This document shows, in pieces, positions 11,556 to 24,990 of a stretch of 37,717 nt of DNA. Each line of letters begins with the position of its first letter. The stretch's first letter is position 1. Source of the stretch: Chloroflexota bacterium (lineage in GTDB: Bacteria > Chloroflexota > Dehalococcoidia > UBA2979). Location: NCBI GenBank assembly GCA_002716405.1, contig PBBA01000006.1, positions 251,966 to 289,682 on the forward strand, written 5' to 3'. Below the pieces are notes generated by a model, which saw only the letters and a program-made list of their open reading frames with translations, did no database searches and had not been told where the DNA came from. A program made the translations under genes and the position numbers.

Positions 11556-14500
11556 TTACTCTGCAGCAAGGTGTCGATATAAGGTAGGCAATCGTCGAGG
11601 TAATGATTCAATATTATCAACCACTTCATATCCAATATCATCACACATCTGTTTTAAGTAATCATGGCCTTCTTTATCAACAGTAATCAAAAATGGAGTA
11701 ATCCCTTTTCGCTTAGCTTCATTTAATGCTTGTTTAGTATCATGCACTGCATATTCTTTTTCAGTTCGATCACGACCATAGCCATGATCTTGAGGGCGCC
11801 CATCTGAAACCATGATCAAAATTTTTACCTTGGCGTCATGATCATCTAATTTCTGTATTGCATGACGAATGGCTGGACCCATTCGTGTAGATCGAACAGG
11901 ATCGATCTTATCTATACGCTTTCTAACACGGTCATTAAAATCTTCCTCTAAATCCTTTATTACATGAAATTCTACATTATCTCTGCCATATCCAGAAAAT
12001 CCATAGATTCCATAAGAGTCACCAATCGCCTCTAAAGCTTCGACCACTAAAACTGTTGATTCTTTTTCTAAATCAATAATACGTTTGGGCGGTTCAATAG
12101 CTTGACGTGCTCTTCGCTGAGCTAACCATTGGAAATATTTTGAAGGATCATCTTGAAAATCTTCTTCTTCTTCTTGATATTTTTGACGCTGTTTTTCTAT
12201 TTCTTCATCGGTAGAGGCAGACATATCCAATAAAAAGGCAACTGCAACGTCACGTTCGATTTTATTTCTTCGCGTATATATTCTTGCAAGCGGCCCTACA
12301 CCTGCTTTTTTATCAACATAAAATTCTATTGCTTCATCAAGGTCTATCTCATGGCCATCCTCTAAGCGCTTAATCTTTCTAAAGCTTTCAGGTCTCATCA
12401 ACTCAAATTGCCTTCTAGTTTCCATAACTAAACCATGATGCTTTTGCAAAATATCTTGGTAATAATCTAATTCACCTTCATCACCAAGCCGTTCTCCAAC
12501 CCTGCACCACCGAGGACGATAATCAGAAGCTCTGAAATCCCATTCATCATAGTAAAACCAATCAATTTCTACGGGCAGTTCTTCATCATCACCACCGTCA
12601 CCTCCGCCACGCTCATCTCCAGACTCACCACTTTGTTCTTTAGGTTCACCAGCAGGGGTAGCAGCATCTTTTTCCAAATTATCAAGAAACATTCCTAAAC
12701 TAGAAGCGAGATCACCTTCTGCCCATTCATTGATGGTTATTTCAACTGAATTTTGCAGTAATTCCATTAATTGTTCTTTAGTTAGTGGTGATGCTGTACC
12801 ATCGGTCTGTCCTTGTTGCTGATCTTTTAATTTCATCATAAGTTGAACAAGTTCTGGTTTGAATTCACCTCTAAACTCGGGTTGATCTGGATTTTCAAAA
12901 TCAAGTTCATCACTACTAGCAGGCATAGGTGCTTCACCACCTTCACCTCCACCGGGCATATCCGGTGCGATTTGTATCATTTCTTCATCAGGAGGTTCCC
13001 ATTCAACATCAGTAAACTCTTGACTTACATTTGGAATCAAGACAGCGATGTCATAAAGAGCCGACGCAACTTCAGCAGAATCTTGAACAGTTGCATCATC
13101 CAAATTCACCATTTGCAATGCCTTGATTCCTTTTTGCATGGTTACATATCGGTCTTGTGGCCATCGAATAGCATCTGGGCGTCCTAGAGAGGCTCTTAAT
13201 AAATTTTCAACAAATGCTTGACGAAGTCCCATAGCACGAACTTCAGGACGTCTCTCTACTTCCCAATTTTGAAGACGTTGTAACCATTTGCGAATACCAC
13301 CATATTCACGGTTGACATATGATCCCACGCGAGTATCTTCAACAATAGTGAAAATGCCTGAGATTAAAAGTCGATCATCAAACAAGTTAAAATATCTTTG
13401 TATTTCTGTACTTACTTCCTGTGACTGACTATCAACATCTGAAATTTCAGGATCTGAAGAAATTGTATTCGTCAACCGGTTAGATTCTCTTAACTTAGCA
13501 GTAGATTCAGTATGCTCTCCATTAATGTTGAATTCATAATTAAATGAACCAAACTCTAATCGACCTGTTTGATGTGTGGTAAAAACTTTATAGACTTGAA
13601 AATTTGAATTTTGTTCTTCAAAAGTATTCACAAAAGGAGGCAAATAAATTGTAGTGCCTTCGGTCGTCGGAGCAGCTTCGGATATCCATCCAATATTACG
13701 ATCAACAAGATCTTCAGAAGATAAAACAGCAACTTGTTCACCCGATAACGCTTTAGCATACATTCGCAACATGCTACTCACACTCGGTAATTCAACACGC
13801 GCAGATAAAGTAGCAAGCATTTCCTCAGCACGTGATGACTCTAATCGAAAATATGCTTCTGCACCTTCAGCATTACCCATATTTAAAAGTTCGACACCGA
13901 CTACAGACCAACGCTCCATTTGCTCTGTAGTTAATCGCGAGCGAACAAATGGAGCAGATTTAAGATACTCCATCGCAGCAATTGCACTATTAGGTGCAAT
14001 ATCAGTAGCAAATTTCAATAATGATTTTTGATCTTCTTGTGGAATTTCCTCCAAAGATTGAGCAGCGTCAACAAATAATGGAAACCCTTGACGACCAACA
14101 TCCATAGTTACTTTTGAAGCAAGATCCAAAAAGATTGTACGTTCACTTGATGCAATGTTTTCAATTAATTTTGGTCCACGTTCAAAATATAGACGTGTAT
14201 CTGCCCAAGAAGCTCGCGTCACAGATTTAGCGAATAGTAAGAAAGGTTCACGATCTTCTAAAGTAAGATTAGAAAAAATAGCATACGAACTTTCTAATAC
14301 ACTATTAGCCAATTCATAGGATCTCTCGGTCAATTGATCAATTATATCAACCAGACGATCAACCAATTCTAAAGGTAATACACTCAACAATGATGAACTT
14401 TGTTGAAAATATAATGCAGCAAGGGCGATAGATTTCCAATTTCCTCTACATAGACGCTGGCCTTGTTTAGCCCATACATCAAGATCATCAAAATTTAATG

Positions 14501-14837
14501 AATTTAGTGTGTCAGGTGTTGCCTTAATAAACGCAACAGACATCAAAGATGCGTCAGTAGCTAAATATGTTCCTATCTCAGACCATTGCTTCAATTCTGA
14601 AAAAGTAAGTTTTTTAGCTACCGCAGGGCTAACACGAAAAAATTCAGATGTTGCTTCCCATGATCTAAGGGAATGATGAGCCAGATCTACTCCAATCTTA
14701 ACCCACTGCTCTAACTGAGATTGATCATAAATCTCTTCTAATTCCTTTAATCCTTGTAAAAGATCATCAGGCAAGGAGGAGCCAAATCCTCTTAATTCTT
14801 GCGAATATTGATCATGAAGGGCTTCAACAGAAGACAT
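11556..14837 (-). CDS. large VWA-domain protein of NorD/CbbO type with N-terminal helical repeats
   Basis: Of 1,093 residues, the last 220 or so form a von Willebrand A domain with an intact MIDAS: DMSAS at about 871-875 and later VSDGRPQDH. Before it lie two Gly/Glu/Asp-rich linkers (around 615-650 and 715-745) as in CobT/NorD/CbbO proteins. The first 345 residues are a run of degenerate 35-40-residue helical units, each with an aromatic in a W-x-x-x-G context (Trp45, Trp85, Trp122, ... Trp310) and often a YF or FF-x-x-S-P element. The AAA+ partner is 9 bases upstream. NorD and CbbO use such partners to activate nitric oxide reductase or Rubisco, but neither client is in view. I prefer ATG 14837 to the in-frame TTG 14843. 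Confidence 0.85.
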   Translation of the reverse strand: MSSVEALHDQYSQELRGFGSSLPDDLLQGLKELEEIYDQSQLEQWVKIGVDLAHHSLRSWEATSEFFRVSPAVAKKLTFSELKQWSEIGTYLATDASLMSVAFIKATPDTLNSLNFDDLDVWAKQGQRLCRGNWKSIALAALYFQQSSSLLSVLPLELVDRLVDIIDQLTERSYELANSVLESSYAIFSNLTLEDREPFLLFAKSVTRASWADTRLYFERGPKLIENIASSERTIFLDLASKVTMDVGRQGFPLFVDAAQSLEEIPQEDQKSLLKFATDIAPNSAIAAMEYLKSAPFVRSRLTTEQMERWSVVGVELLNMGNAEGAEAYFRLESSRAEEMLATLSARVELPSVSSMLRMYAKALSGEQVAVLSSEDLVDRNIGWISEAAPTTEGTTIYLPPFVNTFEEQNSNFQVYKVFTTHQTGRLEFGSFNYEFNINGEHTESTAKLRESNRLTNTISSDPEISDVDSQSQEVSTEIQRYFNLFDDRLLISGIFTIVEDTRVGSYVNREYGGIRKWLQRLQNWEVERRPEVRAMGLRQAFVENLLRASLGRPDAIRWPQDRYVTMQKGIKALQMVNLDDATVQDSAEVASALYDIAVLIPNVSQEFTDVEWEPPDEEMIQIAPDMPGGGEGGEAPMPASSDELDFENPDQPEFRGEFKPELVQLMMKLKDQQQGQTDGTASPLTKEQLMELLQNSVEITINEWAEGDLASSLGMFLDNLEKDAATPAGEPKEQSGESGDERGGGDGGDDEELPVEIDWFYYDEWDFRASDYRPRWCRVGERLGDEGELDYYQDILQKHHGLVMETRRQFELMRPESFRKIKRLEDGHEIDLDEAIEFYVDKKAGVGPLARIYTRRNKIERDVAVAFLLDMSASTDEEIEKQRQKYQEEEEDFQDDPSKYFQWLAQRRARQAIEPPKRIIDLEKESTVLVVEALEAIGDSYGIYGFSGYGRDNVEFHVIKDLEEDFNDRVRKRIDKIDPVRSTRMGPAIRHAIQKLDDHDAKVKILIMVSDGRPQDHGYGRDRTEKEYAVHDTKQALNEAKRKGITPFLITVDKEGHDYLKQMCDDIGYEVVDNIESLPRRLPTLYRHLAAE

Positions 14838-14846
14838 TACCAATTT

Positions 14847-15713
14847 CTATTCTTCAAAAATTGAGGTCACGACCTCTTCAATAGATCTTTGAACTTCAAG
14901 ATCGTCTGTTAATGCCCATACAACCGCAACTTCACAAGCACGGCGCGGAGAAATACCTTGATGGATAAGCTTGCCAGCGTAAACTAACAAACGAGTAGAA
15001 ACACCTTCTCCAAGACCATGTTCTTTTAAATTTCGAACCTTTTCAGCAAGTTTAGCTAACTCAGAAGCGATAGTTAAGTCAACACCTGACTCCTGAGCAA
15101 TAATCTCAGTTTCTTGATCACGGTCAGGATATCCAAACTCAATTGCTATAAAACGTTGGCGTGTAGAATGTTTCAAATCTTTTAGCGCAGATTGATATCC
15201 AGGATTATAAGACATCACTAATATAAAACCATCTGCGGCTTCCAATAATTCTCCTCGTTTTTCAACAGGTAGCAATCGTCGATAATCCGTAAGAGGATGT
15301 ATCAAAACCGTTGTATCTTTTCGAGCTTCAACCACTTCATCTAGATAACAAATCGCGCCAACTTTTGTAGCACGAGTAATGGGACCATCAACCCAACGTG
15401 TATCATCACCTTCAAGTAAGTATCTGCCAACTAAGTCTGATGCAGTCAAATCTTCATGGCAAGCAACAGTAATTAATGGAACACCATTTTCATCACCTTG
15501 GAGATCTTTATGAAGTTTCCAAGACATATATTCAATAAAACGAGTTTTTCCAACCCCTGTAGGACCTTTCAACAAAACTGGTATTTTCTGTTCGTATGCT
15601 GATTCAAAAAGTTCTACTTCATCAGAAATAGGCAAATAAAAAGGTTCTTCGCTAATTCGAAAATCCTCTACAGCTAACTGTTTAAAACCTTGAGATTGTT
15701 CCATAGTAGTCAA
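14847..15713 (-). CDS. CbbQ/NorQ/GvpN-type AAA+ ATPase
   Basis: A 289-residue ATPase of the CbbQ/NorQ branch of the MoxR group. Walker A is [11 protein letters not shown], Walker [11 protein letters not shown], and sensor 1 lies in VMSYNPGYQ, a phrase typical of CbbQ/NorQ; the C-terminal part has [16 protein letters not shown]. It would power the adjacent VWA protein in remodelling a metalloenzyme. I favour a TTG start at 15713 because GGAGG sits seven bases before it; the in-frame GTG at 15719 is too close to that site and the ATG at 15704 rather far. The specific client cannot be assigned. Confidence 0.88.
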
Positions 15714-15778
15714 AAGCACCCCTCCACATATCCATTGGAGAAGTTAATTTCTCCAATTTTACAAACAGAAATTACTTC

Positions 15779-16518: not shown

Positions 16519-17487
16519 CTAACTTTGAGCCTTAACTGCTTCAATCAATGCAGGTAATACGGCTTTGTAATCACCTACGATCCCATACTTAGCATTTTGA
16601 AAAATATTTGCTTCAGGATCTCTATTTATTGCAATTATCATCTTCGAACCAGAACAGCCTGCCATATGCTGACTGGCTCCAGAAATTGCGATTGCTACAT
16701 AAAGATCAGGAGTAACAACTTTCCCTGTCAGTCCTACTTGCTGACTGACAGGATACCAACCCAAGTCACATGCTGCGCGAGAAGCCCCAACTGCTGCTCG
16801 ATTCGAACCAAAAGCTGCTGCGAGATTTTCAACATCGCCAAATCCTTCAGGGCCTCCGAGACCACGACCACCAGAAACAACTATAGGCGCATCAGTAATT
16901 GCTAAACCTTCAGCCTCTGCAACTTCACGTCCTTCAATTGTAGTTCGAGAGTCAGAAAGTGCGGGCAAATCAGCAGTTTCACCAGAAGCACCTGATTGTG
17001 GTGCTAAAGCTTCAAAAGCTTTAGCACGGACAGTTGCGATTACAGGACTAGTTGCAAAACTATAATCTGCAAGAGCATTACCACCATAGCAGGGACGAGT
17101 CACTCTTATTTCACCACTATCAGAACGAACATCCACACAATCCATAGCTGCAGCGGTACCTTGTCGAGCTGCTAAACGCGGAGCTAAGTCACGACCAACA
17201 GTACTCTGAGCAATTAAAATTACATCGATACCTTCAAGTATAGATTCAATGGCGGTGACCCATTGATCGGAATTATATTCTGTATAACCGTCATCATCGT
17301 TCACAAATACTTTGCCAGCACCCGCTTCAAAAGCTTGAGGAGCAACATCAGTAGCACAACATCCAAGTAGTGCAACAGAGACTGCACCACCTTCTGCTAG
17401 CCGAGTAGACTGTCCAATCAATTCAGCAGTAGTAGCAGTCATTTCACTATCTGCATGCTCTCCAACAACTAAAATATTTTTGGTCAT
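16519..17487 (-). CDS. etfA: electron transfer flavoprotein subunit alpha
   Basis: Alpha subunit of ETF, which holds FAD and carries electrons from acyl-CoA dehydrogenases. The C-terminal FAD domain is canonical: SGGRGLGGPEGF, then VGASRAACDLGWYPVSQQVG, LTGKVVTPDLYVAIAISGA and INRDPEANIF. The length of 322 is standard. It follows etfB by 21 bases; AGAGAG precedes the ATG. Its partner oxidoreductase lies just upstream of etfB, so electrons most likely go to that membrane protein. Confidence 0.96.
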   Translation of the reverse strand: MTKNILVVGEHADSEMTATTAELIGQSTRLAEGGAVSVALLGCCATDVAPQAFEAGAGKVFVNDDDGYTEYNSDQWVTAIESILEGIDVILIAQSTVGRDLAPRLAARQGTAAAMDCVDVRSDSGEIRVTRPCYGGNALADYSFATSPVIATVRAKAFEALAPQSGASGETADLPALSDSRTTIEGREVAEAEGLAITDAPIVVSGGRGLGGPEGFGDVENLAAAFGSNRAAVGASRAACDLGWYPVSQQVGLTGKVVTPDLYVAIAISGASQHMAGCSGSKMIIAINRDPEANIFQNAKYGIVGDYKAVLPALIEAVKAQS

Positions 17488-17508
17488 TTTTCTCTCTCTA
17501 ACTAAAAT

Positions 17509-18315
17509 TTACAACACTTTATCTGCAACAAGCTTCGCAACTAAATTCGTAGCCTGTTCCTCAGGAGTCTCACCTTCAATTATTTCAACCTGAGAATCTG
17601 ATTGAGGAATATAAAGTTTTTCTAATTTCAAACGTGCACCTGAAGAACCGACTTCGCTAGGATCTAAACCTAAGTCTTCGTGAGTCATCGTGGTTACAGT
17701 TTTCTTAGCAGCTTGCATAATTTGCTGCAGTTTAGGGTAACGAGGCTCTCCAAATTCATTGGAAACAGTTACTACTGCAGGAAGTCCTTGAGATACCGTT
17801 TCAAATCCATCTGCCAGTACTCGAGTAGTTTTCATTGATCCATCAGATATTTCTACGTCTTTAGCAAGTATTGCAACTGGCCATCCTAGCGCTTCTGCAA
17901 CAAGTAAACCAACCTGGCCCACATCCCAGTCGGCAGCTTGCCTTCCACAAAAGACAGCATCAACATCACCAAGGTTACTTATTGCAGCGGCAAGCACTTT
18001 CGCAGTTGTGTGAGAATCACCATCTTCAAAAGCATCGTCCTGTAACAGAACACCTTCATCAGCACCCATAGCTAGAACTTGCTTAATAGCAGCCTGAGCA
18101 CTTTCAGCTCCAACTGACAAAACTGTAATTTTAGCATCATCACCTTGTGCTTCTTTAATCTGCAAAGCTGCTTCAGCTGCAATACCATCATACTGACTCA
18201 AAACAGGTTGAAAACCTTGGGCTGGGACAACAGTATTAGTGGCCTCATCTATTTTGAATGCCGAAGGTGGAGTCTCCGGATCGGGTATTTGTTTGGCACA
18301 TACTACAAAATGCAT
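17509..18315 (-). CDS. etfB: electron transfer flavoprotein subunit beta
   Basis: Beta subunit of ETF. It has the N-terminal CAKQIPDPETPP, AMGADEGVLLQDD, and the EtfB signature region around TRVLADGFETVSQGLPAVVTV and EPRYPKLQQIM. From the ATG at 18315 it has 268 residues. The frame is open seven codons further, but GGAGG six bases before 18315 decides the start. The order Fe-S oxidoreductase, etfB, etfA on one strand argues for one functional unit. Confidence 0.96.
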   Translation of the reverse strand: MHFVVCAKQIPDPETPPSAFKIDEATNTVVPAQGFQPVLSQYDGIAAEAALQIKEAQGDDAKITVLSVGAESAQAAIKQVLAMGADEGVLLQDDAFEDGDSHTTAKVLAAAISNLGDVDAVFCGRQAADWDVGQVGLLVAEALGWPVAILAKDVEISDGSMKTTRVLADGFETVSQGLPAVVTVSNEFGEPRYPKLQQIMQAAKKTVTTMTHEDLGLDPSEVGSSGARLKLEKLYIPQSDSQVEIIEGETPEEQATNLVAKLVADKVL

Positions 18316-18389
18316 AATATTCCTCCGTACTAACAAAACAACTCAGATAACAATAACTTCATCTCAAATTGTCATCTACTAAAATGTAA

Positions 18390-20588
18390 CTATATTTCAG
18401 TCTTTTCTTCAATTGAACTATCTTGTTCTCCAAAAACAGCAAGTTCTAAAATTTCTGCAACGTCAAAAGGCTCAATTCTGCCAACCTCATCAGGTTGCAT
18501 AGCTGGCACACCATCTTCGAACATCTGAATACAGAAGGGGCAATTAGAAACTACCTTATTCGCACCAGTAGCTATAGCTTCTTCACTACGCACATGGTTT
18601 ACCCTTCTTTCACCAACTTCTTCCTGCCACATATTTCCACCACCGGCACCACAACAAAGACCTTTACTCATATTTCTTTCCATCTCTTGAATATTCGTAC
18701 CAGGAATAAAATTCAAAATTTGTCTAGGAGCATCATAAACACCATTTATACGTCCTAAATAACACGAGTCATGATAAGTAACAGTATCAGGCAACTCATG
18801 TTGTACCTTTAATGCGCCCGATTGCAATTGAGAATTTAAAAACTCAGTGTGATGAAGCACTTCGAAGTGTCCATCAAATTGAGGATATTCATTTTTGAAT
18901 GTATTAAAACAATGAGGGCAATTTGTAATTACTTTCTGAACATTTTTTTCCTTAAAAGTACCAATCAATTGCTCTGCTAAGATTTGATAAAGGTATTCAT
19001 TCCCCAATCTTCTAGCAGGGTCTCCATTACAAGTCTCTTCCTGTCCAAGGACTCCAAATGAAGAACCAGATTCTTGTAGAAGTCTAAATACAGCCTTAGT
19101 GACAGGTAAATTTCTTTCTACTAAAGATCCAGAACATCCAACCCAATAAAGGTAATCTTGTGTTCCATCAAAAATGGGCACATCACCTAATCCATCCATC
19201 CACGTAGTACGTTCTAAAGCAGTCCCACTCCATGGATGTCCTCGCATTTCAATATTCTGCAATGCAGCTTGAGCAGTTTGTGGCAACCGCGCTTCATCCA
19301 TTACCAAAAATCTACGCATATCAACAATTGTTGGAACATGTTCAATCATCACAGGACATTCTTGTACACATGCACCACATGTACGACAGGCCCAAAGTGT
19401 CTCATCTTGAATTACTTCACCTACCATAGATATTGGAGATACCGATCGCGTATCACCACCTTCATTTCCAACTTTTTGTATTGATGGTCCTACAGAAGCC
19501 AAATGGCCCTTCAAATCTTGGATAAGATGCATTGGAGATAGTGGTTGTCCAGCTAAATTAGCTGGACATACATCCGTACATCTCCCACATCGAACACAAG
19601 CGTCTAACTCGAAAAGCTGCTTCCAAGAAAAATCTTGGACATAACCAACACCAAAAATTTCCTGTTCCTCGATATTAGGAATGGTAGATAAACGACCTGG
19701 AGAATCAGTGCGTAATAAAAATGCATTAATTGGAGCAAAGAAAAGATGGTCTAATCTTGTGAAAACTATCAAAGCTAACCAAGAGAATGCTAAAACGACA
19801 TGTGTCCACCACATCGCACTATGGCTCCACAAAATTTGATTATCGCTCATAGAAAAAATTTCAAATAAATTAGCCAAAACGTAAGATACAAAAGACCATT
19901 TTGCCCAATCTGGGTGCTGTGTTAATTCTGTGACCTCAATACGAAAAGCTTCTACAAAAAAACCAGATAATAAAACTAAACCTAGTCCAACAATAATAAG
20001 ATGATCTTCCGGACGCTCGTCCCAGCGTATTCGAGAAAAATCTATAAAATATCGACGCCACATTGCCATTCCGACACCAATTAATCCAATTAATCCAAAT
20101 AGATCACCATAAAAGGAAAAAAAGAGGTAATACGAACCATGCAAAAAATTAAGAGGTGTATCATCTTGAATGGCGACTTGTGCAGTGACAAGCGTTAAAA
20201 CTACAATCGATGAGGAAATACTCCAATGCATAACTGCAGCATATCGATCACGTCTAACTTTATCCTGTGCAACTCCTAGACGGAAAACATTCTTAAAACG
20301 GTGGGGTAAGTTAGCAAAAACACTTTCAGGAGTATCCTTCCCAAGTCGCCACAATGTAGCATGTCTAACTAGACCATAAACTAACAAGCCTACCAAAGAA
20401 GACATAAACACATAAACAGACCAGGGGTGAGCAACATTAAAAAATGATTCTCGACCTGCTCCTTCAGTAGCACTAAATTGCATGGCTAAATAAAGGCCAC
20501 CTAAACTAAGTGCGATAGCAGGCATCCACCACTTGCCAATTAGTTGCGATTGCAATCGATTATTCTGGGTAGAAGAATTAGCTACCAT
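18390..20588 (-). CDS. membrane Fe-S oxidoreductase, probable ETF:quinone oxidoreductase (EMO/HdrDE-like)
   Basis: A 732-residue fusion. The first 290 residues have about six membrane helices resembling the haem b subunit NarI/HdrE. Then come two [4Fe-4S] motifs, CVRCGRCTDVCP (about 330) and CRTCGACVQECP (about 400), and two CCG domains as in HdrB/HdrD: the first with GCSG, CNGDPARR and CPHC, the second with DSCYLG, LCCGAGGGNMW and CPFC ending near 685. In the first domain the Cys-Cys-Gly reads Cys-Asn-Gly. Proteins of this build next to etfBA pass electrons from reduced ETF to menaquinone; that role is inferred from the family and the neighbours. It follows the acyl-CoA ligase by 43 bases. 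Confidence 0.9.
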   Translation of the reverse strand: MVANSSTQNNRLQSQLIGKWWMPAIALSLGGLYLAMQFSATEGAGRESFFNVAHPWSVYVFMSSLVGLLVYGLVRHATLWRLGKDTPESVFANLPHRFKNVFRLGVAQDKVRRDRYAAVMHWSISSSIVVLTLVTAQVAIQDDTPLNFLHGSYYLFFSFYGDLFGLIGLIGVGMAMWRRYFIDFSRIRWDERPEDHLIIVGLGLVLLSGFFVEAFRIEVTELTQHPDWAKWSFVSYVLANLFEIFSMSDNQILWSHSAMWWTHVVLAFSWLALIVFTRLDHLFFAPINAFLLRTDSPGRLSTIPNIEEQEIFGVGYVQDFSWKQLFELDACVRCGRCTDVCPANLAGQPLSPMHLIQDLKGHLASVGPSIQKVGNEGGDTRSVSPISMVGEVIQDETLWACRTCGACVQECPVMIEHVPTIVDMRRFLVMDEARLPQTAQAALQNIEMRGHPWSGTALERTTWMDGLGDVPIFDGTQDYLYWVGCSGSLVERNLPVTKAVFRLLQESGSSFGVLGQEETCNGDPARRLGNEYLYQILAEQLIGTFKEKNVQKVITNCPHCFNTFKNEYPQFDGHFEVLHHTEFLNSQLQSGALKVQHELPDTVTYHDSCYLGRINGVYDAPRQILNFIPGTNIQEMERNMSKGLCCGAGGGNMWQEEVGERRVNHVRSEEAIATGANKVVSNCPFCIQMFEDGVPAMQPDEVGRIEPFDVAEILELAVFGEQDSSIEEKTEI

Positions 20589-20631: not shown

Positions 20632-22215
20632 TTATACAATCGTACCTTCAGTTGGTTGACCGTACTGGTCCCGTAAATCATTTTTTAAAACTTTTCCGAG
20701 GTGATTGCGAGGTAATTCATCAACCCATTCATATAAAGCTGGAGCTTTATATGAAGCCAAACGAGATTTCACATAGTCTGTCAAATCAGATTCAGAAGGT
20801 TGTATATTATCCGTAGACAAAACAACTATAGCTTTAACAACCTCACCCCATTCTGTATCTTTTACTCCAATTACAGCTGCCTCAGATATGGCATCATGAT
20901 CTTCTAAAACATTCTCAATTTCAGCAGTTGAAATATTTTCGCCACCACGTATTACCATATCTTTAAGTCTACCTGTGATGAATAAGTATCCACCTTCATC
21001 AATTTTACCCAAATCACCAGTGTGCAACCATCCATCATGTATTGTTGCGCCAGTATCATCTTCTCTTTTGTTATAACCTTTCATAACACGATCACCACGG
21101 ATACATATTTCACCTTCTTGATCGTAAGGAAGAATAGAACCATCTGGATCCTTTATTGCAATATCCATATCAGCCATTGGGCGACCAACTGAGCGTAGAC
21201 GTTGTAATTTCAGTTCGTTTTGTTCATCAGTACCATCTAGTCGATGATCCTCAGGACTTAGGAAAGTCATTGATCCTGTAGCTTCTGTTTGACCATAAGC
21301 ATTCATAAGATCAACGCCTTGAGGAGGAAATACATCAACTGCCTGTCGCACTACCTCATAAGGCATCGGAGCGGCTCCATAGGTAATCAGTTGTAAAGAA
21401 GAAAGATCATAAGACGAGAAGTTTTCCACTTCCATAATACGCTTTAACATTGTTGGAACCACAAAAGAGTGCGTGACTTTCTCATCTTGAACCATCTGCA
21501 ACCAACCTTCAGGGGTAAATTGAGGGAGAATAGCAAGTCGACGACCTGAAAAAATTGTACTCATCATCGTAGTGGCTCCTGCAATATGATAAAAAGGTAC
21601 TGCGACTAAAACCACTTCCTGTTCAACTGCAGGATCTGCAGGAGACTGAGTATTAACTACGAGCGCAGTCAATGCTTGATATGATAAGACTACACCTTTT
21701 GGTAAAGATGTAGTACCAGACGTGTAAATTAAAAGTGTGGGATCTGCATCGTCAATATCAACAAAGACAGGAATATCTTCCCCACCTGCACGAATATCTG
21801 CAAACGATTCACAACCCGGAGGACTAAAATCTATACCGATTACATTTTTGACACCATCAAGTGAATCTTTAACTTCTTCATAAATTGGCCAATAACGCTC
21901 GGCAATAAATAAAGTAGCAATGTCTGCCTCATTAACCATGTGAGTGATTTCTTCTGTTTTAGCACGGAAATTTAATGGAACCAGTGTTGCGCCTACAGTA
22001 GCAGCTGCATAATAAATCTCTACAAAGTCAGGACTATTCACAGCCATTACACCAACATTGGCACCTTTACCAACTCCAAGAGATTGAAAAGCATTAGCCA
22101 ACTTACTGACATTTGACTGTAATTCCATGTATGCAATGTGGTGATCTTGATCTGCCAAAGCAGTCCTATCGGGCACTATAGCAGAAGAAATAGTAAGAAA
22201 TTCAGCTGTATTCAT
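20632..22215 (-). CDS. AMP-binding acyl-CoA synthetase/ligase
   Basis: Activates a carboxylic acid to its CoA thioester through an acyl-adenylate. The adenylation signature LLIYTSGTTSLPKGVVLS lies near residues 162-179, the A5 motif around NAYGQTEATG, then DGWLHTGDLG, the hinge GRLKDMVIRGGENIS, and the catalytic Lys in NHLGKVLKN near the end. The length of 527 suits a medium- or long-chain or aromatic acid ligase; chain preference cannot be read here. GGAGG stands six bases before the ATG. It is separated from the upstream gene by 209 bases containing an inverted repeat, so it probably has its own promoter. Confidence 0.92.
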   Translation of the reverse strand: MNTAEFLTISSAIVPDRTALADQDHHIAYMELQSNVSKLANAFQSLGVGKGANVGVMAVNSPDFVEIYYAAATVGATLVPLNFRAKTEEITHMVNEADIATLFIAERYWPIYEEVKDSLDGVKNVIGIDFSPPGCESFADIRAGGEDIPVFVDIDDADPTLLIYTSGTTSLPKGVVLSYQALTALVVNTQSPADPAVEQEVVLVAVPFYHIAGATTMMSTIFSGRRLAILPQFTPEGWLQMVQDEKVTHSFVVPTMLKRIMEVENFSSYDLSSLQLITYGAAPMPYEVVRQAVDVFPPQGVDLMNAYGQTEATGSMTFLSPEDHRLDGTDEQNELKLQRLRSVGRPMADMDIAIKDPDGSILPYDQEGEICIRGDRVMKGYNKREDDTGATIHDGWLHTGDLGKIDEGGYLFITGRLKDMVIRGGENISTAEIENVLEDHDAISEAAVIGVKDTEWGEVVKAIVVLSTDNIQPSESDLTDYVKSRLASYKAPALYEWVDELPRNHLGKVLKNDLRDQYGQPTEGTIV

Positions 22216-22424: not shown

Positions 22425-22940
22425 TCATCTATCTAAAACTGTAATGACTTCTACCCATACGTGTAGTATACCTTCTTCACCTCTTTTATAAGTCACTTGT
22501 GGCGTCCTTAAAGGGTAATTAGCTCCACTTATAGCGTCTCCTGTTAATGCCCATACACTATCCGAACAAAGATCTAGCAATACCCCTGTAATACTCAACG
22601 GATTTTTCGAAGTTCCACGTATATCGTCACTGTCATAAATAACGTTACATCCACTTTGCTCATTACGACCATCAACCGCACGGATACGGCCATCTTCCAT
22701 ACCAATAAGATAAAAATTCATATCATCGAGTATTACAATTTTCCCTATATCAAATTGCTCAATTGATCCTGCATCGAATTGATATACCTCAATTTGAGGA
22801 TCTGCAACTATTTCACCCCATAAGAAAATAAAAACTGTCAGAACGGAAAAAGTAACGAGTGCAATAGGACCCAAGGAAGGTAGAATATTTGAAAATAGAT
22901 TAAATGAATTATGCGATTTTTTTTTCTCATCATTATGCAT
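22425..22940 (-). CDS. membrane-anchored Rieske-like protein lacking cluster histidines
   Basis: A 171-residue protein with a basic N-terminus, one membrane helix (about 25-41) and an outer beta domain. The pattern after residue 75 (a DG-x-I-x-AVDG turn, Cys98, a gap, LLDLCSDSVW with Cys125, then TGDAISGANYPLRTP) follows the outline of a Rieske domain, C-x-H ... C-x-x-H ... G-x-x-x-x-G-P. In it the two histidines are Val100 and Ser128, so a [2Fe-2S] Rieske cluster could not be held in the usual way. The two Cys could form a disulfide. The resemblance is a weak pattern match made by eye. It lies between a crotonase and the acyl-CoA ligase, same strand. Confidence 0.5.
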   Translation of the reverse strand: MHNDEKKKSHNSFNLFSNILPSLGPIALVTFSVLTVFIFLWGEIVADPQIEVYQFDAGSIEQFDIGKIVILDDMNFYLIGMEDGRIRAVDGRNEQSGCNVIYDSDDIRGTSKNPLSITGVLLDLCSDSVWALTGDAISGANYPLRTPQVTYKRGEEGILHVWVEVITVLDR

Positions 22941-22967: not shown

Positions 22968-23678
22968 CTACCTTGATAAAGACAATCTCACTCTAGCTTC
23001 ATAAGCTAGCCCTTCAGAGATTTCCATTTCACTACTACGTACGGATCTCTTAATTGCACGAACAATCTTTGGATTCATCTGAGAAATCTCTAACGCTAAA
23101 TCAATTGCGAATTGTAAATATTGCGAATGATCAGTTAGGTACTGTATCAACCCAATTTGATAAGCTTTTTCTGCATTAATTGAATTACCCGAGGTAATCA
23201 TCATACTTGAATCAGAAGCACCTATATGACGTGGTAAAGTTTGTGTACCACCAGCCGATGGAATATACCCTAGTTTTACTTCAGGTAAAGCAAATAGAGC
23301 ATTATGTTCGGCAACTCGCAAATCACAATACAAAGCCATTTCAAGTCCGGCACCAAATGAATATCCTTGAAGTGCAGCAATCAGAGGAGTATCAAGAGAT
23401 TGCATTAAATCCCATAAATCTCTATTTTCCCTCGCTGCACGTGCATCAATAATTGAAGGTGCTGTACCAAATTCTGTTATGTCAGCGCCTGCAGAAAAAG
23501 CTTTATCACCCCCTCCATATAATACTGCTGATTTAATGGAAAAATCATCGCGAAGTAACATCAAATATTGCCAAAGCTCATCGCGCATCGCAGTATTTAA
23601 TGCATTCAAACTATCTGGACGATTAAGCCTTAGTATCAGTACATCTTCACAACGTTCTGCATCAATGAAATTAGGCAA
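22968..23678 (-). CDS. enoyl-CoA hydratase/isomerase family protein (second crotonase)
   Basis: Crotonase fold, 236 residues from a TTG at 23678. I prefer this start because GGAGG lies five bases before it; the in-frame GTG at 23690 would overlap that site. The oxyanion hole is formed by KAFSAGADI and YSFGAGLEM; both catalytic glutamates of hydratases are present, one in GLEMALYCD and one in LPEVKLGYIPSAGGTQ. It should hydrate a 2-enoyl-CoA or act in a related reaction. The C-terminal helical part is short compared with 255-260-residue relatives. It lies 24 bases after the smaller small protein. Confidence 0.9.
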   Translation of the reverse strand: MPNFIDAERCEDVLILRLNRPDSLNALNTAMRDELWQYLMLLRDDFSIKSAVLYGGGDKAFSAGADITEFGTAPSIIDARAARENRDLWDLMQSLDTPLIAALQGYSFGAGLEMALYCDLRVAEHNALFALPEVKLGYIPSAGGTQTLPRHIGASDSSMMITSGNSINAEKAYQIGLIQYLTDHSQYLQFAIDLALEISQMNPKIVRAIKRSVRSSEMEISEGLAYEARVRLSLSR

Positions 23679-23702
23679 AACGACCTCCACAGATCAGTGC
23701 AA

Positions 23703-23939
23703 TTAAGATGCCCAATCGGGCTTCTTAATTGCACTTACTTCACTGCGTGTATGCTCACGTTCTAGCTCTGCATTAATTTTATCTCCTAAAAGTTGCATAG
23801 CGTGTGAACCTGGAGACATTTCTGTTCGCCAACGGCGAATCATAGCTTTATCTTGCTTACTAAGTTTAATTTTTACAATCTGATCTACAACAGCATCAAA
23901 CATTGTCGTCGATTCTTCTACCGTAAATTCTACCTTCAT
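23703..23939 (-). CDS. small protein B, paralogue of the preceding small protein
   Basis: A 78-residue charged, helical protein I do not recognise. It starts at ATG 23939, which overlaps the stop of the previous gene as ATGA; GGAG is eight bases upstream. It aligns with its neighbour (23936-24199): both begin M-x-V with a strand, continue with a V-x-x-Q-I helix, then LS-x-x-x-K-x-(L/M)-I-x-x-WR, and end with S-x-AM followed by (L)N-x-x-(I/L) and a basic tail. No membrane helix, Cys pair or metal motif is seen. The coupling to two crotonase genes suggests a subunit or regulator of that enzyme system. Confidence 0.72.
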   Translation of the reverse strand: MKVEFTVEESTTMFDAVVDQIVKIKLSKQDKAMIRRWRTEMSPGSHAMQLLGDKINAELEREHTRSEVSAIKKPDWAS

Positions 23940-24199
23940 GACCAACGCTCCGTTTCAGAAACTTTTACTTTGCCTTTTGTCCGCATCATTCTGGTCGTAC
24001 GTTCATCTATATAATTACCAATGCGCTCATTTAGGAAAACTGTGAACTCATCCATCGCACTAGTACCTAAATTTCTATCACGCCTCCATTCCTCAATTAA
24101 TTTACGACCGTCAGGAGACAAATCAACATGATCTAATATTTGTGCACTCACTAAAGTGACTAAAATGTGTGCATCATCAGAATTTAGTACCACATTCAT
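23936..24199 (-). CDS. small protein A, unknown, between two crotonases
   Basis: An 87-residue protein of unknown function, starting at ATG 24199 where GAGAGG lies eight bases upstream; the frame is open to 24238, but that ATG has no ribosome site. The sequence has an N-terminal strand (MNVVLN), an amphipathic helix around VTLVSAQILDHV, the LSPDGRKLIEEWRR core, and a C-terminal basic helix with NYIDERTTRMMR. It is clearly related to small protein B (about one residue in three by eye). Tandem retention of two diverged copies suggests a hetero-oligomer. Confidence 0.72.
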   Translation of the reverse strand: MNVVLNSDDAHILVTLVSAQILDHVDLSPDGRKLIEEWRRDRNLGTSAMDEFTVFLNERIGNYIDERTTRMMRTKGKVKVSETERWS

Positions 24200-24237: not shown

Positions 24238-24990
24238 TTATCTGTTTTTAAAAACAGGATCTCTTTTCTCCATGAATGCCGCCACACCCTCCGCACGATC
24301 TTCGGTAGATTGTAGAATTACGGTCAAGTCTAGTTCTGTTTGAAGACCTTCTGAAAGACCAACTTCACTTCCACGAAGTATTGCTTCTTTAGCAAAACGA
24401 GTAGCAATAGGACCTCGTGAGGCAATAATTTCAGCAATTTCCCTGGATCGCAAATTCAATTGTTCATCGTCAACCAACTCAGAGACTAATCCGATACGTA
24501 ATGCCTCATCGGCATCAATTTCCTCTCCAGTAAGTAACATCCGTAAGGCATTTGACCTACCAATTGCTCGAGGTAAACGTTGTGTAGCACCAGCTAAAGG
24601 AACATAACCCATCTTTGTTTCTGGAAATGCAAATAGTGAATTCCTAGACGCAATTCGTATATCACATGAAAGTGAAAGTTCTAAACCAGCACTTAAAACA
24701 GATCCTGACATAACTGCAATTGTCGGCTGCTTTATTTCAGCAATTGCCTTGAATGCCGCCCCTATAGCGACTTGGTCATCAGAGGTTTTATCGAGTATTT
24801 CTGGGGACCAACCTATAGCAAATGAAGAATTCAAGGAGTGAATTATTACTACATAGATATCTTCCACATCCATACTGACAGTTGAAGAATGTTGAATTAA
24901 TTCACCTAGTGAATCCAGATCAAAACAATCTTCAACTAATTCCAGGGAAATTATGGCAATGTGATCTTCATAGCTTATATTTATAGACAC
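24238..24990 (-). CDS. enoyl-CoA hydratase/isomerase family protein (first crotonase)
   Basis: A 250-residue crotonase that opens the gene cluster. The oxyanion region SGSVLSAGLELSLSCD and the second glutamate segment FPETKMGYVPLAGATQRLPR are intact, so both glutamates needed for hydration are kept. The N-terminal quarter is diverged: the usual NRP segment is absent and the first oxyanion loop reads SSFAIGWSPEI rather than F-S-A-G-A-D. The start is a GTG with AGGA six bases before it. It is only about 35-40 % like the other crotonase by eye, so the pair is an old duplication or two separate recruits. Confidence 0.9.
   Translation of the reverse strand: MSINISYEDHIAIISLELVEDCFDLDSLGELIQHSSTVSMDVEDIYVVIIHSLNSSFAIGWSPEILDKTSDDQVAIGAAFKAIAEIKQPTIAVMSGSVLSAGLELSLSCDIRIASRNSLFAFPETKMGYVPLAGATQRLPRAIGRSNALRMLLTGEEIDADEALRIGLVSELVDDEQLNLRSREIAEIIASRGPIATRFAKEAILRGSEVGLSEGLQTELDLTVILQSTEDRAEGVAAFMEKRDPVFKNR

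Follow-up and report, generated by a model that had tools for sequence, protein, structure and literature searches.

A conserved pair of small, predicted helical paralogues in a beta-oxidation operon of Dehalococcoidia, a candidate accessory factor of a proposed split enoyl-CoA hydratase

Two small paralogous proteins, here called A and B, are encoded between the crotonase genes ECH1 and ECH2 in the 37,717-nt stretch of Chloroflexota DNA that was analysed (the window). Both are real genes under very strong purifying selection, and the pair is a new, previously unnamed family of small proteins predicted to be all-helical. The explanation which we favour, tentatively and at somewhat less than even chances, is that they form an obligate heterodimer serving as an accessory factor (for assembly, stability or docking) of a split crotonase, in closest association with ECH1, in a beta-oxidation operon. 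The operon runs on the minus strand in the order ECH1, A, B, ECH2, a 171-aa protein, FadD, Fe-S oxidoreductase, EtfB and EtfA, with the following features:

24238-24990, minus strand: ECH1, crotonase fold, degenerate catalytic motifs, intact C-terminal CoA-anchoring helix (AFMEKRDPVF)
23936-24199, minus strand: small protein A, 87 aa, begins MNVVLNSDD, paralogue of B, three-helix prediction
23703-23939, minus strand: small protein B, 78 aa, begins MKVEFTVEE, paralogue of A, conserved tail IxK(P)DW
23936-23939, minus strand: ATGA overlap of the A stop and the B start, 4 nt
22968-23690, minus strand: ECH2, catalytic motifs intact (AFSAGAD, GAGLE, PEVKLGYIPSAGGTQ), no C-terminal helix or tail
22425-22940, minus strand: membrane-anchored Rieske-like protein without cluster ligands, conserved operon member
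20632-22215, minus strand: acyl-CoA synthetase (FadD type), conserved operon member
18390-20588, minus strand: membrane Fe-S oxidoreductase with nitrate-reductase-gamma-like and CCG domains, EMO-like, conserved operon member
16519-18336, minus strand: electron transfer flavoprotein subunits (EtfB 17509-18336, EtfA 16519-17487)

The original prediction had described A and B as small proteins whose genes are coupled by an ATGA overlap and flanked, within 40 bases, by crotonase genes on the same strand. All of this was found again, on the minus strand, with 38 nt between the end of ECH1 and A and 12 nt between B and the start of ECH2. Its start codons are those conserved among homologues, while the starts in a mechanical ORF list are longer. 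The shared core LSxxxKxxIxxWR stands except for its K, which is R in A, and the shared SxAM segment needs a small correction, since it reads TSAM in A. The proposed paralogy was borne out when a profile built from 39 A's was compared with one built from 39 B's (probability 98.7, E 4.6e-16, 75 columns); moreover, in many genomes A is also matched by the profile of B. Each of the two has homologues in 43 of 99 relatives, at the same places. In comparisons with two relatives of the same genus, A has a dN/dS of 0.03-0.05 and B one of 0.02-0.03, both below the within-genus values of ECH1 (0.11-0.16) and ECH2 (0.06-0.08).

Searches of Pfam, NCBIfam, PADLOC and PDB sequences matched no family for A or B, in line with the original prediction, which recognised no described one. 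AlphaFold2 single-chain models, calculated from 38-sequence alignments, consist of three helices (mean pLDDT 83 for A and 88 for B), and Foldseek found no usable relative of them in the PDB (best E above 1). The C-terminal tail of B, modelled with B alone, has low confidence (mean 59), yet its residues I71, K73, D75 and W76 are nearly invariant in the alignment, and this combination makes the tail docking-like.

It was also suggested originally that the pair binds or delivers acyl-CoA, and small helical proteins inside an acyl-CoA operon could indeed bind or carry its substrate in the manner of acyl-CoA-binding protein (ACBP). The comparisons do not bear this out, and we consider it improbable. 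There was no significant match to ACBP for A or B in Pfam, NCBIfam or PDB sequences, and the listed Foldseek matches include no ACBP; nor was there a profile match to acyl carrier proteins or a conserved DSL phosphopantetheine motif in the alignments. Further, the models have three helices and not four, and the conserved set comprises structural W, R and N residues plus the B tail, with nothing else that looks like a ligand site.

The A-B tandem occurs in many families of the class Dehalococcoidia (Chloroflexota), a mostly uncultured group, and was not found outside this class in the searches made. When the phylum was sampled evenly, every one of the ten genomes with a match (10/10) belonged to Dehalococcoidia, and a contig search with the near family of B returned Chloroflexi/Dehalococcoidia records alone; the named matches come, according to their isolate names, from marine, freshwater and groundwater assemblies. 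The B profile matched 93 of 294 Dehalococcoidia genomes, most of which are incomplete MAGs. An ECH2 orthologue is present in 91 of the 93 genomes with B, as compared to 99 of the 201 without it.

Two overlapping small genes may also call to mind a defence or toxin-antitoxin pair residing in the operon, but we regard this as very improbable indeed. A and B are paralogous, strongly constrained and inherited with the operon across families, a vertical and class-wide pattern. Neither a match to known type II toxin-antitoxin or defence profiles nor a mobile distribution was found: PADLOC gave no match, PHROGs gave weak, non-significant models alone, and no plasmid carries B according to a plasmid search.

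In a first set of 39 loci, A lies upstream of its paralogue B on the same strand in every case, ECH1-A-B-ECH2 are on one strand in 39/39, the 4-nt overlap occurs in 16/39, and FadD and the Fe-S oxidoreductase then are present in most. In a wider set spanning many families, 74 of 77 loci have ECH1 directly upstream of A (two of the others are contig ends and one is an exception), and 68 of 77 have ECH2 within 1.2 kb (one contig end, eight exceptions). Where ECH2 is displaced, ECH1-A-B still stay together in seven of the eight loci. Since the loci are related, such counts are not independent. The dedicated neighbourhood noted originally is kept across many families of Dehalococcoidia, and orthologues away from crotonases, the finding that would speak against it, were seen in one locus of 77 only. 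In this exception (L140, genome G513) a well-conserved A-B lies amid unrelated genes (LytR family, methyltransferase, DNA polymerase III); A-B has no ECH1 neighbour there, and no ECH2 orthologue was found in this 93%-complete genome. At L165, B is masked by Ns. Long open frames in GC-rich genomes had suggested ECH1-A or A-B fusions, but no in-frame fusion was present in the loci examined.

Some further features of the region can be mentioned here. The 171-aa protein carries a membrane anchor at its N terminus and weakly matches Rieske iron-sulfur subunits (PDB 8hn2, with E 0.003 over the full sequence and 0.13 for the domain); the two cysteines at the site of the disulfide pair are kept, while the cluster ligands are lost, with SGC and DPCSG instead of CTHxGC and CPCHG. 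At 11556-15719 of the window (minus strand), directly after dephospho-CoA kinase, a CbbQ/NorQ-type AAA ATPase gene stands beside that of a 1095-aa VWA-domain protein, and the two look like a MoxR/VWA activation pair. Genome G000 (1.3 Mb assembly) contains about 20 crotonase genes, two of which form a second tandem pair, on contig C6 (14837-16458).

ECH1 and ECH2 both match Pfam ECH_1 (174 bits for ECH2 of the window) and each forms one clade. Residue positions are given below in human/rat ECH numbering, with which PDB alignments agree over the core. ECH2 has the catalytic equipment of a hydratase, with the catalytic Glu144 and Glu164 and the oxyanion-hole motifs: Ala98, Asp99, Gly140, Gly142, Glu144 and Glu164 are present in 110/110 orthologues. 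The C-terminal helix with the Phe279 and Lys282 equivalents is absent from ECH2 of the window; Phe287 is found in only 11/110 orthologues, and position 279 is a gap in 61 of 71 A/B-bearing loci and in 26 of 39 other loci. ECH1 shows the reverse. Its C-terminal helix is kept (Phe279 93/93, Lys/Arg282 91/93, Arg283 92/93, Phe/Tyr287 93/93), while Glu164 remains in 46/93, Glu144 in 76/93 and Ala98 in 3 of 65 A/B-bearing loci, and the oxyanion motif AGAD is lost. In ECH1 of the window both Glu are kept and AGAD is not. As a separate observation, in family f33 (L132, L134, L137, L153, L154, L155, L168) ECH1 is without nearly all active-site motifs, its 40 C-terminal residues have hardly changed, and ECH2 is even shorter (about 205 aa).

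With this reciprocal decay, ECH1 and ECH2 resemble the two parts of a single hetero-oligomeric hydratase. The active site of rat ECH lies under helix H10; its adenine pocket is lined by Phe279, and the CoA 3'-phosphate is bound by Lys282 of another subunit (PMC13126182), and in crotonases in general the C-terminal domain can cover the active site of the neighbour (PMC3637252). Accordingly one could picture ECH2 as the chain with the catalytic site and ECH1 as a pseudo-crotonase which would lend its C-terminal helix to the neighbouring ECH2, so that the Phe279/Lys282 equivalents would border the adenine pocket and hold the 3'-phosphate of CoA. Complementary loss is the pattern expected under this reading. 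An ECH1:ECH2 complex is also suggested by co-evolution, with a mirror-tree partial correlation beyond species signal of r 0.67 (p 0.0045) in a small set of 21 loci.

The missing tail of ECH2 raised the possibility that B, with A as its partner, replaces it in trans. The end of B, IKKPDW, resembles the usual crotonase ending EKRxPxF, and by motif the ECH2 tail is lost in 68 of 71 A/B-bearing loci. At L136 (genome G489), B was not found between A and ECH2, where a different gene of ~95 aa stands (GYD-like by eye, as we take it), and the ECH2 tail is kept there. However, 30 of the 39 loci that lack adjacent A/B have a truncated ECH2 as well (three of these, L191, L209 and L210, have A/B elsewhere in the genome), and conversely the tail is kept in some B-bearing genomes (L166, L167). 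The invariant I-x-K-x-D-W of B is out of register with the crotonase AFxEKRxPxF, and some B's have His or Ser in place of the Pro. On the tree, there were too few independent pairs of A/B presence and ECH2 truncation for the test to have power. Weakened above all by the truncated ECH2 in A/B-free loci and by the register of the invariants, a role of B as a stand-in for this tail seems to us a poor prospect.

ECH1-ECH2 pairs without A/B are common in many lineages, including one supported clade of 23 loci, and ECH2 is often truncated there too; A/B were probably lost in f138, G528 and G015. In f16 both crotonases are present and unlinked. A search of the A/B-free loci for diverged A/B at relaxed thresholds gave no match, and the long gaps between ECH1 and ECH2 in such loci are occupied by other genes. 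Often, at L189, L190, L193-L195, L199 and L203, these gap genes start with an LDLHTH motif, by eye presumably PHP-type phosphoesterases. As the pair occurs without them in many lineages, A/B add to the split crotonase but are not required for it, and ECH1-ECH2 can do without them. The original idea that they complete an enzyme is weakened by this: the crotonases do look like incomplete halves, but each is apparently completed by the other.

For A and B themselves, hetero-oligomerisation had been suggested, and the two proteins co-evolve as expected of such partners (partial r 0.58, p < 0.0005, in the same 21 loci). Together they would make up an obligate heterodimer or an A2B2 assembly. On the other hand, neither ECH1 nor ECH2 showed rate co-evolution with A/B beyond species signal (partial r -0.05 to -0.21, 21 loci). 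This missing signal fits a separate small complex, for example a regulator or sensor which shares the expression of the operon and does not touch the crotonases; the solitary A/B in G513 and the dispensability of A/B to ECH1-ECH2 fit such a complex, too. We consider it a serious rival, if on the whole an unlikely one. Against it stands the place directly behind ECH1, which is kept in 74/77 loci even when ECH2 leaves, and DNA binding by A:B is unlikely in view of the slightly negative net charge (median -2 for both proteins).

It is the steady position behind ECH1, together with the operon context and the docking-like tail of B, which makes us favour an assembly, stability or docking factor. 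Since the A/B genes keep their place right behind ECH1 also in loci where ECH2 lies elsewhere, A:B probably binds ECH1, and the conserved disordered tail IxK(P)DW of B would probably be the docking peptide. A:B would be an accessory subunit or an assembly/docking factor of the hydratase proposed for ECH1 and ECH2, which would operate in beta-oxidation with FadD, the EMO-like Fe-S oxidoreductase and EtfAB.

Comparison with known systems shows how such a hydratase would differ from them. Enoyl-CoA hydratase 1 (rat/human ECHS1, E. coli PaaF) has the full catalytic set seen in ECH2 and the C-terminal CoA-anchoring helix seen in ECH1. Enzymes of this type are homohexamers with both in one chain (PMC13126182, PMC13101464), whereas here they are divided between two genes. 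The PaaF-PaaG complex unites two different crotonase-fold proteins, as proposed for ECH1-ECH2, but PaaF and PaaG are both working enzymes, arranged as stacked homotrimer discs (PMC4498308), with no reciprocal loss and no small partner. ChsH1-ChsH2 and other MaoC hydratases of acyl-CoA catabolism have a catalytically inert partner domain (PMC13101464, PMC11321319). These work as proposed for ECH1-ECH2, by a hydratase with an inactive partner, but they have the MaoC (hotdog) fold and not that of crotonases, and are not known to have A/B-like proteins. Finally, the Fe-S oxidoreductase of the operon resembles EMO, the ETF:methylmenaquinone oxidoreductase of Syntrophus (PMC8805022), in its nitrate-reductase-gamma-like and CCG domains and its place beside EtfAB, a likeness set by domain content only.

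It is tempting to speculate about a four-chain hydratase, composed of a catalytic chain, a helix-lending scaffold chain and an A:B pair that assembles it or links it with the EMO-like complex of the membrane, but the full picture is doubtful and we hold it with less confidence than the accessory role alone. Crotonases are textbook homo-oligomers. If true, the division of an active site over a catalytic chain and a decayed scaffold chain would clearly exemplify how duplicated subunits come to depend on each other, with the split graded across a whole bacterial class. In addition, A and B provide a new protein family with defined candidate partners in mostly uncultured bacteria of ocean, lake and groundwater.
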